A DNA stretch of 51,583 nucleotides, from assembly GCA_027450145.1 (NCBI GenBank), contig DAIDKH010000029.1, forward strand, positions 1-51,583, written 5' to 3'. Below the pieces are notes generated by a model, which was not told the DNA's origin, made no database searches, and worked only from the letters and a program-made list of their open reading frames with translations. Origin of the DNA: Chthonomonadaceae bacterium. GTDB lineage: Bacteria; Armatimonadota; Chthonomonadetes; Chthonomonadales; Chthonomonadaceae. Positions 11,672 to 19,096 of this stretch are shown here, one piece after another (the first letter of the stretch is position 1; every line of letters starts with the position of its first letter). A program made the position numbers and the translations under genes.

Positions 11672-12589
11672 ATGCTGAAGTTGTGGGCGCGAGCGCTGCC
11701 CGTTGCCGCTGCAGTCTGTTCAATAGGCTTGTGTACCGCCGCTAACGCGATCACCCTGCCACCGGCGGTTGCTGGTTTTAGGCTAACCACAGCCCCCAAA
11801 ACATACGGTCCCAGCACCCTTGCAGACCATGTAGATGGCGCCGCACAGGCAGTTATGCGGTACCACTTTAAAAGCTGTCTTTATGGCATTTACGCTCCCG
11901 GCGGCAGGGGTTCGCAAGTCATTACCGCAGATGTGTACACCATGGCCGATACGCTGGACTCGTTCGGTTACTTCTCCGCGCAATTAAGCCCGGGCGCAGC
12001 GTATGTAAAACACGTTTCCGTTGGTGCAGGTGGCTTTATGCTAAATACTAACGTAACGTTCTGGCGCGGGCCCTATGTTGTGAGTGTAACCATCGCAGCA
12101 AGTCAACCCACTGCCAATTTCCACAGCGCGATGTTCTCCATAGCGCGGGCAATCAACAGCCGATTATCGGGTTCGTCAGCGGAACCCTCTGGGCTGCACA
12201 TGCTGCCTGCCGGCCGGGTGCCCTATTCAGAAATGTTTCAACGGCGGGATGTTGGTGGGGAGCGATTTTTAACCAATGGATTTTCAGCGCGCTACGCGGC
12301 TGCGGGTGAGCAGGCAACTCTGTTCATCTGTACATATCCTTCTAACTCCGCCGCTTCGGCCGCGTATCACAACTACCTCTCTTCTAGCAGCAAACCCTTT
12401 TCACTGGCGCCTGGGGCTCATCCGCAACTGATACATGGACTGGGCTCCTCCGCATTTATGGTCAAAACCCGATTTACGGGCTCTGTCATCGCTGCCCTAA
12501 AAGGCAAATATGTAGTGGGAATGTTCAAAACGGCAAATGCATTAGTTGCCAAGCGCCTTGTGACCAGCACTATTGCACATCTTCATTAA
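11672..12589 (+). CDS. Secreted DUF6599-like protein
   Basis: A 305-residue protein with a clear Sec signal peptide (LWARALPVAAAVCSIGLCTA, cleavage near ANAI). The mature part begins LPPAVAGFRLTTAPKTYGPS and carries DHVDGAAQAVMRYHFKSC and ITADVYTMADTLDSFGYFSA, the pattern I associate with DUF6599 (an IDG-A-YL-Y-F motif followed by a Y-M-D-A-G-F segment). A second half with a similar plan (YSEMFQRRDVGGERFLTNGF, ATLFICTYPSNSAASAAYHN) suggests an internal duplication. The ATG has a strong SD (GGAGGGTC). It is first in a same-strand run with a Tat-exported DUF362 protein and a polyferredoxin, so a role outside the membrane in that redox pathway is inferred. Confidence 0.7.
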   Translation: MLKLWARALPVAAAVCSIGLCTAANAITLPPAVAGFRLTTAPKTYGPSTLADHVDGAAQAVMRYHFKSCLYGIYAPGGRGSQVITADVYTMADTLDSFGYFSAQLSPGAAYVKHVSVGAGGFMLNTNVTFWRGPYVVSVTIAASQPTANFHSAMFSIARAINSRLSGSSAEPSGLHMLPAGRVPYSEMFQRRDVGGERFLTNGFSARYAAAGEQATLFICTYPSNSAASAAYHNYLSSSSKPFSLAPGAHPQLIHGLGSSAFMVKTRFTGSVIAALKGKYVVGMFKTANALVAKRLVTSTIAHLH

Positions 12590-12636
12590 TCACCCAACGG
12601 TTATTAACACCTGGTGAGGAAGGAGCTTCATAATAA

Positions 12637-13653
12637 ATGGCCGAAGATAACAAGCGGGTGAAATCTCGCAGGCAGTTTCTGGAAGTTGCGGGAGGTGCGG
12701 CAGCACTCGGTGGGTTATATGGTCTCACGTTCTTTCAGGGTGAAGGCTTCGCCTCTCCGAAAAATATACGACCCGCACCGGCTCCACAACCCGGGATGCC
12801 TGATATCGCAGTAGTGGAGGGAAATCCATCCACATATGGCGACATTACGGAGCAGGCCGTCAACGCTATCGGAGGCATCAGCCGCTTTGTTAAGAAGGGC
12901 GACAAGGTAGTCATTACGCCGAATATCGGTTGGATGCGAACCCCAGATCAGGCAGCAACTACCCACCCGGCCGTTGTTAGAAAACTCGTGCAAATGGTGC
13001 AAAGCGCTGGTGCCTCCCGCATTACTCTCATCGATTATTCACTGGACGACTGGAAATTAGCGTTCCAGATATGCGGTGCAAATGATGCCGTGAAGGGTAC
13101 GATGGCAAGTCTATTGTCTCCGGATCACCCTACCATGTATCGCAAAGTATCTATTCCAAGCAAGGTTCCCAATAAAACAATTGATGGCGCTGAATATGAC
13201 CCGCGGCATCATTACGACCGCATTGAACAGATGTTGCCGCGCGACATTATTGAAGCGGACTGCTTCATAGTCAATCCTGTAGTGAAAGATCACGAGGCTG
13301 CGGTTATCACGATTGCGATGAAAAAACTGATGGGTTGTATCTGGAATAGAAAAGATTACCATCGCTACGGTCTCCATCCTTGCATAGCGGAACTCAACAT
13401 GTACCTGCGCCCCACCCTCATCGTTACGGATGCTACGCGGGCACTTCAGACAAGAGGTCCCAAGGGGCCAGGCATAGTTACCACGCCTAACAAGGTCCTT
13501 GCAGGAACCGATCCGGTGGCGATGGACTCCTATTGTTGTCAATTTCTAACCGTGAACGGAGTAACTCCGGATCAGGTTCCGCATCTGGTCATTGCGGATA
13601 GCTTGGGTAGAGGGAAGATAGATACCAGCAGCCTCAATATCAAGGAGGTCTAG
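12637..13653 (+). CDS. Tat-exported DUF362 protein
   Basis: A 338-residue protein with a twin-arginine signal (KSRRQFLEVAGGAAALGGLY), so it is exported folded and probably with cofactor. The body matches DUF362: DIAVVEGNPSTYGDITEQAV, a KKGDKVVITPNIG segment, TTHPAVVRKLVQMVQSAGAS, ECDCF-like EADCFIVNPVVKDHEAAVIT, KKLMGCIWNRKDYH, and GTDPVAMDSYC near the end. Members of this family are often linked to iron-sulfur proteins; some carry ferredoxin domains, but this one does not. It lies 47 bp after the DUF6599-like gene, with GAGGAAGGAG upstream of the ATG. A role as a partner of the polyferredoxin at 14534 is inferred from context. Confidence 0.85.
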   Translation: MAEDNKRVKSRRQFLEVAGGAAALGGLYGLTFFQGEGFASPKNIRPAPAPQPGMPDIAVVEGNPSTYGDITEQAVNAIGGISRFVKKGDKVVITPNIGWMRTPDQAATTHPAVVRKLVQMVQSAGASRITLIDYSLDDWKLAFQICGANDAVKGTMASLLSPDHPTMYRKVSIPSKVPNKTIDGAEYDPRHHYDRIEQMLPRDIIEADCFIVNPVVKDHEAAVITIAMKKLMGCIWNRKDYHRYGLHPCIAELNMYLRPTLIVTDATRALQTRGPKGPGIVTTPNKVLAGTDPVAMDSYCCQFLTVNGVTPDQVPHLVIADSLGRGKIDTSSLNIKEV

Positions 13654-13746
13654 GAAGGATTCAGGTTGACAAGGGGTCGTCTCGCGTAATTCACTTCAGT
13701 TCCCGATAACATTACTATACGCAACTACAACATTGGGAACCAGTAA

Positions 13747-14508
13747 ATGATCATCAAAGAGATCCATATCGACCACCTGCTTCCTCAGATCAAGGTTGGT
13801 ACTGGCGGAAGGTTTAGTGCTGCCAGTATCGCAGCCCTGGCTGCCAGCATAGACCATCAAGGTTTGTTGCAGCCAGTGTGCGCAGCCATATGTGATGACG
13901 GGAACATTCGTCTCATTGCTGGAGCCCGTCGCGTGCGGGCCGTACAAGTGTTAGGCTGGCAAACCATAATTTGTGTAGTGCGTTACGTATGCAGCGAGGC
14001 AGAAGCGGTTGCTCTTGCGATGGCAGAGAACCTTCATCGCGCCAACCCACCCGCCGTTGCATTTTCAAACAACATGACCGAACTGTTGAAGGCGCTTGGT
14101 TCCGTCGATGCAGTTGCCCTTGAGTTAGGTCTTCGGCCGGAGCGTGTAGGCAAGTTCGTTGAACCTAAGGTTTCTGTTTCTGGTAAAAAATCTGTGGATG
14201 CCGGCGACACTACTAGTTGCTCGAACACCCTCAACGCTGAACCACAAAAAACAGATGACGGGCATGTGGATGCCGGTGTAAGCAGCCACCATTGTAGACA
14301 CAGTGTGGATATGCAGATTGCAGTCGTACACGATGGTAAAAATAGCCGTCGATCTATTTTGACAGCTAACAAGAATTCGAAAGTGTCGAACTGCGATAAC
14401 CAAAGGTCGTGTAACGGCCGCTTAACCTGTAGTTGCATACCTGAGAAATTACGTGAACCGATTAGATTACTGATAGAATCGTTTCAGGAGGCACAAATGG
14501 TCTCCTGA
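13747..14508 (+). CDS. ParB/Spo0J-like domain protein with unusual C-terminus
   Basis: A 253-residue protein. Residues 1-100 follow the ParB N-terminal fold: IHIDHLLPQ, AASIDHQGLLQPV, IAGARRVRAVQVLGW (the GxRRxRA box) and AMAENLHRANPPAVAFS (the ENxHR box). A short HTH-like region follows (SVDAVALELGLRPERVGKFV). The last 120 residues are Ser/Asn/Cys/His-rich, with no recognised domain. True chromosome-partition ParB is usually next to parA, which is absent here. The gene sits between DUF362 and the polyferredoxin, so a regulatory or enzymatic role for the ParB-like fold is possible. The SD is weak. Its last codons overlap a mini-ORF and hairpins controlling the next gene. Confidence 0.75.
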   Translation: MIIKEIHIDHLLPQIKVGTGGRFSAASIAALAASIDHQGLLQPVCAAICDDGNIRLIAGARRVRAVQVLGWQTIICVVRYVCSEAEAVALAMAENLHRANPPAVAFSNNMTELLKALGSVDAVALELGLRPERVGKFVEPKVSVSGKKSVDAGDTTSCSNTLNAEPQKTDDGHVDAGVSSHHCRHSVDMQIAVVHDGKNSRRSILTANKNSKVSNCDNQRSCNGRLTCSCIPEKLREPIRLLIESFQEAQMVS

Positions 14509-14526
14509 CGTTTATTGGCAGGAGAC
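14484..14526 (+). promoter_or_regulatory. Mutually exclusive hairpins and mini-ORF before the polyferredoxin gene
   Basis: TCAGGAG (14484-14490) can pair with CTCCTGA (14502-14508). GTCTCCTG (14500-14507) can instead pair with CAGGAGAC (14519-14526). The shared middle segment means only one stem forms at a time. The second stem hides the SD (AGGAG, 14520-14524) of the ATG at 14534. Within the region AGGAGG (14486-14491) stands five bases before ATG GTC TCC TGA (14497-14508), a three-codon mini-ORF that is also the in-frame end of the ParB-like gene. Ribosomes ending there would open the SD-hiding stem. Translational coupling or attenuation is inferred. Confidence 0.6.
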
Positions 14527-14533
14527 TGTTTTC

Positions 14534-16690
14534 ATGGCAGATATACCTCAGGAGTTTCCGGTGAGCCGTGGGTGCGGTGGCTGTGGAGGCGGCTGCGGTT
14601 GCGCAAGCAAAGCACAATCTGGCGATCAGCGGATGAAGCTTGCAGACATAACATCGTTCCGCAAAAAAACCAGCGGCGACGCGGTCTCATCTCCAACAGG
14701 GATGTTCGCAACAAACGGTACGGTCGCCGCGGCAGACATCGGTGATGGCCCGTATGGTCGTTTTACAGCGGAGCAGAAGCGGAAAATGCGCGAACAGCCC
14801 GGCAATCGCGCAGCACATAACATAGTGAAGGTGCGGCGTACTGTACAAATCCTGACGTTCCTATTGTTTTGTGCTCTCTTCTTCCTGACTACCGCAACCA
14901 GGGAAAACAGCTATGGCATAAACAAGAATTTCTTTATGCTCATGGACTTTCTCAACACCCTCAAAAATGGTATTGCTTCTCATCACCTAGCAATCTATGC
15001 CATAGGTCCTGGCATTTTCATCTTGCTTCTCACACTGTGGGGCGGTCGCATTTTTTGTGGTTGGATATGCCCGTTAGGCACAGCAATCGACATTTCCGAT
15101 CGACTGTTGTACCGCAAGGGCAGGCTGTTCTACACGAAGAAGCGTAGCGATACACGTAGGTTTCGCAATTGGAAGTACATTTATCTGCTGGTCGGTCTTG
15201 GTGCACTGACATTTGGAGTGGACATTCTTACCTTTGGCGACCCAATCTCCCTCATCACGCGTACCTTTACATTTTGCATCTTTCCGCCCATCAGCTATGT
15301 ATGGAACGGCTTCCTAAACGTCGCTGACTCGCACTACATCCACGGAGGATCTCTTCTCTACAACCTTGGCTACAACATTGATAGCCTTCGCCTTCCTTCC
15401 GACCATTATTATAATGGCCTGGGAGTCCTCCTTATATTTGTGGGTCTCATTGGACTCTCCGGATACCAGGAGCGGTTCTGGTGCCGTAATCTATGTCCGT
15501 ATGGTGGTCTTCTTGCTCTAATTTCGCGCGTTTCCTGGCTCCGGCACTACATAAAAATGGACGGCTGCATACATTGCAAAAAGTGCGAATTCCAATCGCG
15601 GATGGGGTGCTACGATAATCTAGACAAAAATGCGAAACAAGAAGCGATGCACAGCATTAGTGAGTGCATTCAATGCTTCCGTTGCGAAACGGTCTGCCCC
15701 ACAGACGTTATTCAGATTCAGGCCCGTGTACCAGCGAGTATTAAGGAGGCGCTTCACCTTTCACCTGCTGGCAAAGCCCCGCGCCCAGAGCCTCAAACTG
15801 AGATCGATCTAGGCAAGCGACGTGTAGTCTCTGCTATAGGGGCCGGCGTGTTGTGGGGTACAGTAACGCAGAGCGCACCCAGTGCTTACCAAGGATCAAT
15901 AAGGCGATACAACAAAAACAACACAGCAATGCGGCCACCCGGTGCCCTACCCGAAAGCGAGTTCCTGGCAGCTTGTACACGTTGCGCAGAATGCATGAAG
16001 GTTTGTCCTACCAATGCCCTGCAACCTGCGACCTTTGAGTTCGGGCTTCAAGGTATCTGGACACCCATTCTAGTCCCATCCATTGGCCCATGCGCCGAAA
16101 AATGCACATCGTGCGGCGATGTATGCCCAACGGGCGCTATCCGTCCATTCACTTGGCAGGACAAACGGTACAAGTTAAAGATGGGCCTCGCAAGCGTCGA
16201 CCATTCTATTTGTGTCGCATGGAATGGCGGACGGGACTGCATCGTTTGTGCAGAAGTTTGTCCTTACTCAGCCGTGGTTTTTCGTGATACTTTTGACGAT
16301 ACCCTTCCAAAGGATCCCACCCTGCCTATCAACCATGTAGACGCTACGGGCAAGGAGGACAACCGAGGCCGGATGAAGCGTGTACCCACCGTTGATGAAC
16401 GCCTGTGTACCGGGTGTGGGCTGTGTGAATACCACTGCCCCGTTATGCCAACACATGCTATTGTTGTCTATACCTATCAAGAAGACCGCAACTTCAAACA
16501 GCCCAAAGAAAAATGGGATGATGGATTCTGGCGTGGTGACTGGGACGCGCGCAAGGACATTGGGAAAGATGCTGAGTATGCGGCCACGAAAGAGGAACTG
16601 GCAAAACACATAGCGATCGACGGTCCCAGTGGTGGTGGTGGCAGTGCCTCAGGTGCCGCGTATAATCCTGATCCAACAGGAGCTCAGTAG
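14534..16690 (+). CDS. Membrane polyferredoxin, NapH-NapG-like fusion
   Basis: A 718-residue protein. Residues 14-23 are a Cys cluster (CGGCGGGCGC). Residues 100-330 hold several membrane helices with the NapH/NosR signature CGWICPLG (175-182) and CRNLCPYGG (317-325). Two 4Fe-4S motifs follow: CIHCKKC (345-351) and CIQCFRCETVCP (378-389). At 428-446 a KRR-hydrophobic segment (KRRVVSAIGAGVLWGTV) resembles an internal Tat signal or anchor. After it come RPPGALPESEF and four cluster motifs: CTRCAECMKVCP, CAEKCTSCGDVCP, CIVCAEVCP and CTGCGLCEYHCP, the arrangement of NapG/MauM ferredoxins. I infer electron transfer from membrane quinol to external partners such as the DUF362 protein. A terminator follows. 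Confidence 0.88.
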   Translation: MADIPQEFPVSRGCGGCGGGCGCASKAQSGDQRMKLADITSFRKKTSGDAVSSPTGMFATNGTVAAADIGDGPYGRFTAEQKRKMREQPGNRAAHNIVKVRRTVQILTFLLFCALFFLTTATRENSYGINKNFFMLMDFLNTLKNGIASHHLAIYAIGPGIFILLLTLWGGRIFCGWICPLGTAIDISDRLLYRKGRLFYTKKRSDTRRFRNWKYIYLLVGLGALTFGVDILTFGDPISLITRTFTFCIFPPISYVWNGFLNVADSHYIHGGSLLYNLGYNIDSLRLPSDHYYNGLGVLLIFVGLIGLSGYQERFWCRNLCPYGGLLALISRVSWLRHYIKMDGCIHCKKCEFQSRMGCYDNLDKNAKQEAMHSISECIQCFRCETVCPTDVIQIQARVPASIKEALHLSPAGKAPRPEPQTEIDLGKRRVVSAIGAGVLWGTVTQSAPSAYQGSIRRYNKNNTAMRPPGALPESEFLAACTRCAECMKVCPTNALQPATFEFGLQGIWTPILVPSIGPCAEKCTSCGDVCPTGAIRPFTWQDKRYKLKMGLASVDHSICVAWNGGRDCIVCAEVCPYSAVVFRDTFDDTLPKDPTLPINHVDATGKEDNRGRMKRVPTVDERLCTGCGLCEYHCPVMPTHAIVVYTYQEDRNFKQPKEKWDDGFWRGDWDARKDIGKDAEYAATKEELAKHIAIDGPSGGGGSASGAAYNPDPTGAQ

Positions 16691-16831: not shown

Positions 16832-19096
16832 TCATGCGGCAGGCATGTGCGCAAGATAATGGCCCGTGGATGTCTGTGCGCTTGCGGCCAAATCAAAGGG
16901 CGTACCTTCGAACTGAACGGTTCCCCCCTGTTGACCAGCTCCCGGTCCAAGATCGATTACCCAGTCAGCACGCGCAATGACATCTAGATTATGTTCAATG
17001 ACTATTACTGTGCAGCCATCATCCACGAGACGATCGAACAGCCGTATAAGTGTGTCGACGTCATTCATGTGCAAACTGGTTGTAGGTTCGTCCAAAACGT
17101 AGATGTTGCCGGTCTTACCCAGTTCAGCCGCAAGTTTAAGGCGCTGGCGCTCGCCACCCGAAAGCGTGGAGAGCGGTTGCCCGAGGGTCAAATACCCAAG
17201 GCCTACGTCATCAATCCCGCGTAAGACCTTTGCAATAGCGGGCTCTGAGAAGAACTGCACGGCATCGTTCACACTCATCTCGTACACCTCACTAATAGTT
17301 TTATCCCTTAGACGGTGCTCCAATACCGTGGGCAAAAACCGCTTACCCTCGCAGGTCTCGCAGCGCGTAATCATTGGGTCCAGGTGAGCTAGATCGGTGA
17401 ATATTACGCCCAGCCCATTGCATTCCGGGCATGCCCCCTTGGAATTTGCAGAAAACAGCGAAGGGTCTACATGGTTCGCCTTGGCGAACGCTTTTCTAAC
17501 ATTATCCAAAATACCTGTATACGTTGCAGTATTTGATCGTCGTGATCCTCTGTTAAGGCTCTGATCGATAACGACGATATCCGGATACGCTCGTGGTAAG
17601 CAGCCCAGGATCAGGGATGACTTCCCAGCCCCTGCCACTCCAGAAACGGCTGTGAGAATGCCTTTAGGAATTGTGACCGTCACGTCCTTTAGATTATTCT
17701 GTTTGGCATTGCGAATAGTCAATTCACCAGTGCGCTCTCGAACGCTCTGTTTTATTCGCTGATGTCGTTTCATGTGGTTGCCCGTGGCAGTACCACTATC
17801 GAGCAGTCCAGCATAATCGCCCTGGTACACTATCTCCCCACCGCGGTGACCAGCGTGGGGCCCCATATCTACTACGTGATCCGCAATTGCAATCATGTCA
17901 GGTTTATGTTCGACGATTAACACTGTATTACCCTTGTCGCGCAACTGCTTCATTAAGCCCGCCAAACGTCCTACATCCTGCGGATGCAGTCCTACTGAAG
18001 GTTCATCAAATACATAGGTAATATCTGTTAATGACGAACCCAGGTGTCGGACCATTTTTACACGCTGGCTCTCGCCGCCTGAAAGACTGGCACTCTCACG
18101 GTCCAGGCTCAGATATCCCAGGCCAATTGTAATCAGGTCATCCAACCGTGCAGTAAGTGCCGCCAGTATTGGACCAACCTGAGGCGCATGGATGGAACGA
18201 ACACAAACCGCCAAATCACTTACCTGCATCGCCGAATAATCCGCAATGTTATGGTTTCCAATTTTGCTGGCTCGCGCTTCGGCATTAATTCGGCTGCCAT
18301 TGCAAGCAGAGCAGGTCCTTCTGGTAAAAATGCGCTCGTATTCGGCACGTATGTGAGGTTGCAATGTTTCGGGATCCTTGCTGCCCAGTGACTTCTGAAG
18401 TTTGGCAACTACTCCCTGATAAGTGAGATTGACTTTCTCAATTTTGACTTTGCGGCCATCGTCCAAATAGAGCAGGTTTGTCCGCTCCTCGTCCGTGTAG
18501 TCCTTTATGGGCTTATCTGCGTCAAACATTCCGGATCGTGCATAGGGCGCCCAGCCCCACCAGCTGTCGACCTCAAACCCCCTGCACAGTAAGGCTCCTT
18601 CGTTGAGCGATTTGGTCTCATCGACAACGGCGCTCAAATCTATGGCAGCTACCTGGCCAATCCCCTCACATTCGAGGCACATACCTCGAGGATCGTTGAA
18701 TGAGTAACATGCAGGTGCTGCCAGATGGGGCTCGGCAGCACGGCAAAACAGCACGCGCAACATCTGCGCGGTATCCGTGACTGTAGCCACTGTAGACCTG
18801 GGGTTACCACCGAGGCGCTGCTGATCGACGATAATCGCTGCCGAGATATTCTGCAGGACGTCCGCGTCTGGTTGACCATATCGCGGCATAAACTGCTGCA
18901 CGAATGCCGGATAGGTCTCGTTAATCAGTCGTTGGCTTTCAGCGGCAATCGTGTTAAATACGAGCGACGATTTGCCGGAGCCAGAAACGCCAGTAAATAC
19001 AGTGATGCGCCGCTTGGGAATGTCCAGCGAGACGTTTTTCAGGTTATTTTCCCGCGCTCCACGAACAATAATTGAGCCGTATTCTCGGTGATCCAT
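16832..19096 (-). CDS. Short UvrA-like ABC ATPase (UvrA2/DrrC class)
   Basis: A 754-residue tandem ABC ATPase. The first half has Walker A GVSGSGKSSL (residues 36-45), Q-loop/zinc modules CLECEGIGQ (C140, C143) and CSACNGSR, signature LSGGESQRVK and Walker B FDEPSVGLHP. The second half has GVAGAGKSSL, zinc module CPECNGLG with CETCEGKR, LSGGERQRLK and VLDEPTTSLH. Full UvrA is about 940 residues; the missing part corresponds to the UvrB-interaction region, as in UvrA2/DrrC proteins tied to drug tolerance or damage protection. It is therefore unlikely to be the main repair UvrA. The ATG has AGGAG six bases upstream. The AHSA1 gene lies just upstream on the same strand. Confidence 0.9.
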   Translation of the reverse strand: MDHREYGSIIVRGARENNLKNVSLDIPKRRITVFTGVSGSGKSSLVFNTIAAESQRLINETYPAFVQQFMPRYGQPDADVLQNISAAIIVDQQRLGGNPRSTVATVTDTAQMLRVLFCRAAEPHLAAPACYSFNDPRGMCLECEGIGQVAAIDLSAVVDETKSLNEGALLCRGFEVDSWWGWAPYARSGMFDADKPIKDYTDEERTNLLYLDDGRKVKIEKVNLTYQGVVAKLQKSLGSKDPETLQPHIRAEYERIFTRRTCSACNGSRINAEARASKIGNHNIADYSAMQVSDLAVCVRSIHAPQVGPILAALTARLDDLITIGLGYLSLDRESASLSGGESQRVKMVRHLGSSLTDITYVFDEPSVGLHPQDVGRLAGLMKQLRDKGNTVLIVEHKPDMIAIADHVVDMGPHAGHRGGEIVYQGDYAGLLDSGTATGNHMKRHQRIKQSVRERTGELTIRNAKQNNLKDVTVTIPKGILTAVSGVAGAGKSSLILGCLPRAYPDIVVIDQSLNRGSRRSNTATYTGILDNVRKAFAKANHVDPSLFSANSKGACPECNGLGVIFTDLAHLDPMITRCETCEGKRFLPTVLEHRLRDKTISEVYEMSVNDAVQFFSEPAIAKVLRGIDDVGLGYLTLGQPLSTLSGGERQRLKLAAELGKTGNIYVLDEPTTSLHMNDVDTLIRLFDRLVDDGCTVIVIEHNLDVIARADWVIDLGPGAGQQGGTVQFEGTPFDLAASAQTSTGHYLAHMPAA

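Follow-up and report, generated by a model that had tools for sequence, protein, structure and literature searches.

The junction between a ParB-like gene and the polyferredoxin gene that follows it in an uncultured Chthonomonadaceae bacterium carries a real, conserved and genus-restricted element, which we interpret, with a probability of about one half, as a cis-acting element that couples the translation of the two genes by RNA unfolding. The window in which it was analyzed, meaning the whole 51,583-nt stretch of DNA, is a single contig (G000:C29) from an assembly assigned to this family (Armatimonadota). On the + strand, the operon comprises a DUF6599 gene (11672-12589), a DUF362 gene (12637-13653), the ParB_N-domain gene (13747-14508) and the polyferredoxin gene (14534-16690). 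Convergent to the latter, at 16832-19096 on the - strand, lies a 754-aa ABC-ATPase gene that we take, by eye from its sequence, to be UvrA-like. The features of the junction are as follows.

13747 to 14508, + strand: gene for a ParB_N-domain protein (Noc/ParB-like, 253 aa), upstream partner of the putatively coupled pair.
14484 to 14492, + strand: segment 1, TCAGGAGGC, 5′ arm of stem 1, within the last ParB-like codons.
14500 to 14508, + strand: segment 2, GTCTCCTGA, the arm common to stems 1 and 2.
14519 to 14526, + strand: segment 3, CAGGAGAC, which holds the polyferredoxin Shine-Dalgarno (SD) sequence AGGAG and serves as the 3′ arm of stem 2.
14484-14492 with 14500-14508: stem 1, 9 bp with one G-U pair.
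14498-14507 with 14519-14528: stem 2, 10 bp with two G-U pairs, covering the polyferredoxin SD.
14495 to 14531, + strand: extended stem 2, AAATGGTCTCCTG with CAGGAGACTGTTT, 13 bp in G000 and the MFE structure of a 66-nt junction fragment.
14497 to 14508, + strand: mini-ORF ATG GTC TCC TGA, proposed earlier; not conserved.
14534 to 16690, + strand: gene for the polyferredoxin (718 aa, a NapH/NapG-like membrane 4Fe-4S protein), downstream partner of the putatively coupled pair.
14548 to 14554, + strand: fourth copy, TCAGGAG, in polyferredoxin codons 5-7 (P-Q-E), a possible further partner of segment 2.

The ParB-like product matches Pfam PF02195 (E=1.3e-12) and, below the cut-off, TIGR04285 (E=2.4e-17). 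Near its C terminus it has two conserved cysteines followed by a conserved E-x-LREPI..SFQEA tail, and it evolves far faster than its neighbors (40-45% identity between congeners, vs 88-96% for DUF362 and polyferredoxin). The polyferredoxin contains Fer4 domains, with matches to TIGR00397 and TIGR02163 that fall below the cut-off; its ATG start is at 14534, with the SD AGGAG 9 nt ahead. An SD-like motif precedes 14 of the 26 genes in the window, so SD sequences are probably used in this organism; a 16S gene for checking the anti-SD was not found in the G000 assembly. A scan of the 3′ end of the ParB-like gene revealed no internal sigma-70 promoter for polyferredoxin. Separately, we noted that TGATAGAAT at 14471-14479 resembles an extended -10 element, which is weakened in G002.

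A preliminary description of this DNA had proposed three successive segments, the middle one able to pair with either neighbor, with one of the pairings hiding the polyferredoxin SD. Both points were borne out: the positions are as claimed, both stems are possible, and stem 2 includes segment 3 with its AGGAG. Stems 1 and 2 are mutually exclusive, as both use segment 2, within which the ParB-like stop codon TGA (14506-14508) falls. The predicted energies of the isolated helices are -14.0 kcal/mol for the 9 bp of stem 1 and -13.2 kcal/mol for the 10 bp of stem 2. Folding of 14460-14560 (101 nt), suggested in the same description, gave -27.6 kcal/mol, moderately better than shuffled sequences (z = -1.97). 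No Rfam family matched at the element when 14000-15000 was searched up to E=5. Further downstream, the first polyferredoxin codons (14536-14558, GAT ATA CCT CAG GAG TTT CC) are nearly invariant at synonymous sites and have two potential pairing partners, the SD segment and segment 2; the TCAGGAG copy that they contain (14548-14554) is also coding-conserved in the family.

We compared the junction across three genomes of the genus, G000 (the source species) and its congeners G001 and G002. Both congeners keep the DUF6599-DUF362-ParB-polyferredoxin order, with polyferredoxins 88-91% identical and ParB-like proteins 40-45% identical, and their junctions have the form TTTCAGGAGGC-(7 nt)-GTCTCCTGA-(variable)-CAGGAGA[C/T]. 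Segment 1 is invariant across the three species, synonymous sites included, as is segment 2, and all nine pairs of stem 1 form in each species. The loop of stem 1 (7 nt) varies among the three, with all pairs of both stems still possible; G002 has a spacer of another sequence and length ahead of the SD, and the distance between segments 2 and 3 is 11 or 13 nt depending on the species. Stem 2 has undergone three substitutions, UG becoming CA in one arm and C becoming U in the opposite one; they convert a U-G pair to C-G, a G-U pair to A-U and a G-C pair to G-U and keep all nine counted pairs. There were no both-sided compensatory changes in either stem among the three congeneric sequences, so the stem 2 substitutions are support for the pairing rather than proof of it.

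These patterns bear on two other readings of the junction. Stem 1 could be the functional structure and stem 2 a by-product, stem 1 serving to protect or process the ParB-like message at its 3′ end or acting as a partial terminator before polyferredoxin. Its perfect conservation would fit, and in G000 the hairpin and its T-rich tail were flagged as resembling an intrinsic terminator. However, G002 has no T-rich tail, and the pairing-keeping changes of stem 2 beside segment 2 would go unexplained; we regard this account as unlikely. The inverted repeat could also be a DNA site, for example an operator for the ParB-like protein encoded by the same gene, given the ParB_N domain of that product and the confinement of the palindrome to the 3′ end of its own gene. 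Against this, the spacing between segments 2 and 3 varies, both stems keep G-U pairs, which are mismatches in DNA, and parS-like sites are unspaced palindromes, making a DNA site highly improbable.

The preliminary description had also singled out a three-codon mini-ORF. The sequence itself is as described: AGGAGG (14486-14491) is followed by five bases and then by ATG GTC TCC TGA, which is simultaneously the in-frame end of the ParB-like ORF (M-V-S-stop). As a functional feature it did not hold up. The ATG is replaced by CTG in G001 and TCA in G002, so the mini-ORF appears to be an accident of the G000 genome, and we rejected it as a conserved element. The remaining GTC TCC TGA is invariant because it closes the ParB-like gene and at the same time supplies the arm common to both stems.

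Conservation of this kind may simply reflect chance, namely two SD-like sequences that happen to lie near an anti-SD-like stretch and are retained by descent and coding. Segments 1 and 3 are indeed SD-like and segment 2 anti-SD-like, and three species only were compared. We assessed chance by synonymous codon recoding and by reference to five orthologous genes of the three species. Among the amino-acid-invariant codons of these five genes, 19% are identical in all three species (Met and Trp excluded). At the 3′ end of the ParB-like gene, by comparison, the codons for S, F, Q, E, V, S and the stop are all identical, and the sole variable site is the third base of the Ala codon, which is the first base of the loop. 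The estimated chance of the F, Q, E, V and S codons all being identical is about 4e-4, and of 1447 windows in the five genes, each made up of eight amino-acid-invariant codons, only two, which overlap and both lie at the ParB-like end, have at least seven of eight codons identical, placing this codon conservation at the extreme. When the last 16 ParB-like codons were recoded synonymously, both stems were at least as strong as the natural ones in 18/5000 (G000), 3/5000 (G001) and 4/5000 (G002) cases, results that are not independent because the species are related. Judged from its sequence, the junction element is under selection at the nucleotide level, beyond chance, and we consider coincidence a very poor candidate given the rarity of both stems under recoding and the extreme codon conservation.

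Each of the three genomes of the genus has a single copy of the element (exact stem 1 pattern), located in every case where the ParB-like and polyferredoxin genes meet. A covariance model run against 31 genomes of the order recovered the three junctions with E < 1e-17 and nothing else below 0.02. A dispersed regulon of the same element was rejected, as exact patterns and the covariance model matched this junction alone in the three congeners. The DUF6599-DUF362-polyferredoxin order (11672-16690) is conserved across the order and also in other Armatimonadota families, while the ParB-like gene between DUF362 and polyferredoxin is an extra that, apart from this genus, was encountered in G006 alone, a member of another genus; relatives that lack the ParB-like gene have an otherwise identical operon and no element. 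In G006 the gene order is the same, the ParB-like protein is 30% identical and the element is absent; a different, AT-rich hairpin is present that does not touch the SD of G006, which lies elsewhere and in a different context. The corresponding G006 junction (L069, 4900-5000) contains an AT-rich inverted repeat, TCTGTTTTT...AAAAACAGA, immediately 3′ of the ParB-like stop. Homologues that keep the gene order and lack both stems, which the preliminary description had named as evidence against its proposal, are thus represented by the more distant G006 only, and both congeners keep the stems. The single match per congener, the absence of the ParB-like gene from other relatives and the different hairpin of G006 indicate that the element belongs to the genus.

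We modeled the effect of ribosome position by removing the 5′ RNA that a ribosome would cover and computing, for a range of fragment choices, how much energy it would take to free the SD. In G000 the predicted cost was 4.3-14 kcal/mol with a ribosome over segment 1 vs 0.1-4.0 kcal/mol with a ribosome at the stop codon, and in G002 it was 2.4-12.3 vs 0.5-4.3 kcal/mol. With the leading edge of the ribosome over segment 1, stem 2 dominates in the model and the cost is at its maximum. In G001 the contrast between ribosome states was large in short fragments, disappeared when 25-40 nt of polyferredoxin were included and was small in longer ones. Compared with recoded controls, the contrast was unusual in G002 (6/1000), marginal in G000 (62/1000) and not unusual in G001 (894/1000). 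In untranslated RNA, the cost of opening the SD was no higher than in recoded controls. The predicted ground state is stem 2 in G000, stem 1 in G002 and neither stem in a longer G001 fragment. In snapshots of the growing RNA, stem 1 forms first in all three species. Later, stem 2 replaces it in G000; in G001 the takeover is transient, and in G002 it is partial and brief. Together, the ribosome modeling and these snapshots make the direction of coupling plausible and point to a resting state that differs among the species.

Coupling of translation by RNA unfolding is an accepted model and is also reported for positively spaced gene pairs; its examples include E. coli rpmI-rplT (+52 nt), MS2 coat-lysis and f1 VII-IX (reviewed in PMC12548453). 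The junction resembles these systems in that one arm of a helix holds the downstream SD and the other falls within or close to the 3′ end of the upstream ORF, so that a ribosome translating or terminating there would open the helix. Sequestration of the SD by a helix overlapping the upstream ORF end is predicted to be possible in all three species through stem 2, and exposure of the SD by a ribosome at the upstream stop is predicted clearly in G000 and G002 and weakly, depending on the fragment, in G001. The junction differs from the known systems in having a further hairpin of about equal strength inside the ParB-like ORF that competes for the same arm; there is no sequence relation, and the junction is known here from sequence and folding predictions. 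Translational attenuators of the erm/cat type have a short leader peptide and drug-dependent stalling, with ribosome position selecting between exclusive pairings. The junction shares with them mutually exclusive helices, one of which hides an SD. Here, however, the upstream ORF is a gene of 253 codons and the mini-ORF is not conserved. The competing stem 1 is thus reminiscent of attenuators, but the defining feature of the erm/cat type, a short leader ORF with its own SD, is absent, as the mini-ORF start is missing in both congeners.

A further comparison is E. coli iraD, where CsrA acts through translational coupling at an SD-sequestering structure with GGA-type motifs, an overlapping stop/start and a short ORF (PMC5574718). 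The junction has in common with iraD the predicted SD-sequestering structure, the putative coupling to an upstream ORF and the GGA-type motifs, here putative CsrA sites; the overlapping stop/start and short ORF are particular to iraD. With this precedent, the CAGGAG motifs in segment 1, segment 3 and the 14548 copy could be CsrA sites, one of them over the SD, in which case bound CsrA would repress polyferredoxin translation or shift the balance between the stems. A csrA gene is present in all three genomes of the genus (PF02599, above the cut-off), and nowhere else in the window do three same-strand copies lie within 75 nt. On the other hand, CAGGAG doubles as a strong SD motif, the GGA triplets in segments 1 and 3 fall in stems and not in loops, csrA sits on another contig, and CsrA alone would leave the conservation of segment 2 unexplained; control by CsrA is improbable in our estimation. 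The csrA gene itself is L174 (G000:C108:6834-6986), with no flagellar neighbors identified within the 3 kb read.

Under the coupling interpretation, stem 2 would bury the polyferredoxin SD, and a ribosome finishing the ParB-like gene would cover segment 2, open stem 2 and expose the SD, since the 5′ arm of stem 2 is the stop-codon end of that gene. The same ribosome may then reinitiate about 25-26 nt downstream. Stem 1 would compete for segment 2, being the first to form during RNA synthesis, and could hold it when no ribosome is nearby, while a ribosome over segment 1 only would favor stem 2. The folding in vivo, the coupling of translation and the role of stem 1 are what we infer from the pairings and folding models. 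Weighing against this reading are the small sample of three sequences, the fading contrast in G001, the ordinary cost of opening the SD in untranslated RNA, the variable ground state, and the intact operon of relatives that have neither the ParB-like gene nor the element. The preliminary description had spoken of a translational switch or stop-start coupling device: the coupling idea survives comparison with two congeners, while a bistable switch is unproven, the ground state varying. A "two-state switch" is less certain than a "coupling element" because the ground-state stem differs between species. We propose only tentatively, and as a rather doubtful extension, that the genus has its own two-state RNA switch: the position of the ribosome on the fast-evolving ParB-like gene, possibly modulated by CsrA, would decide whether an anti-sequestor or an SD-sequestor hairpin forms and thereby set the output of the membrane polyferredoxin.

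Translational coupling itself is already well known. If our interpretation is true, the junction would provide a well-delimited coupling element in the Armatimonadota, a phylum in which little is known of gene regulation, and would indicate that an extra gene placed inside an existing DUF362-polyferredoxin operon can control the gene behind it.
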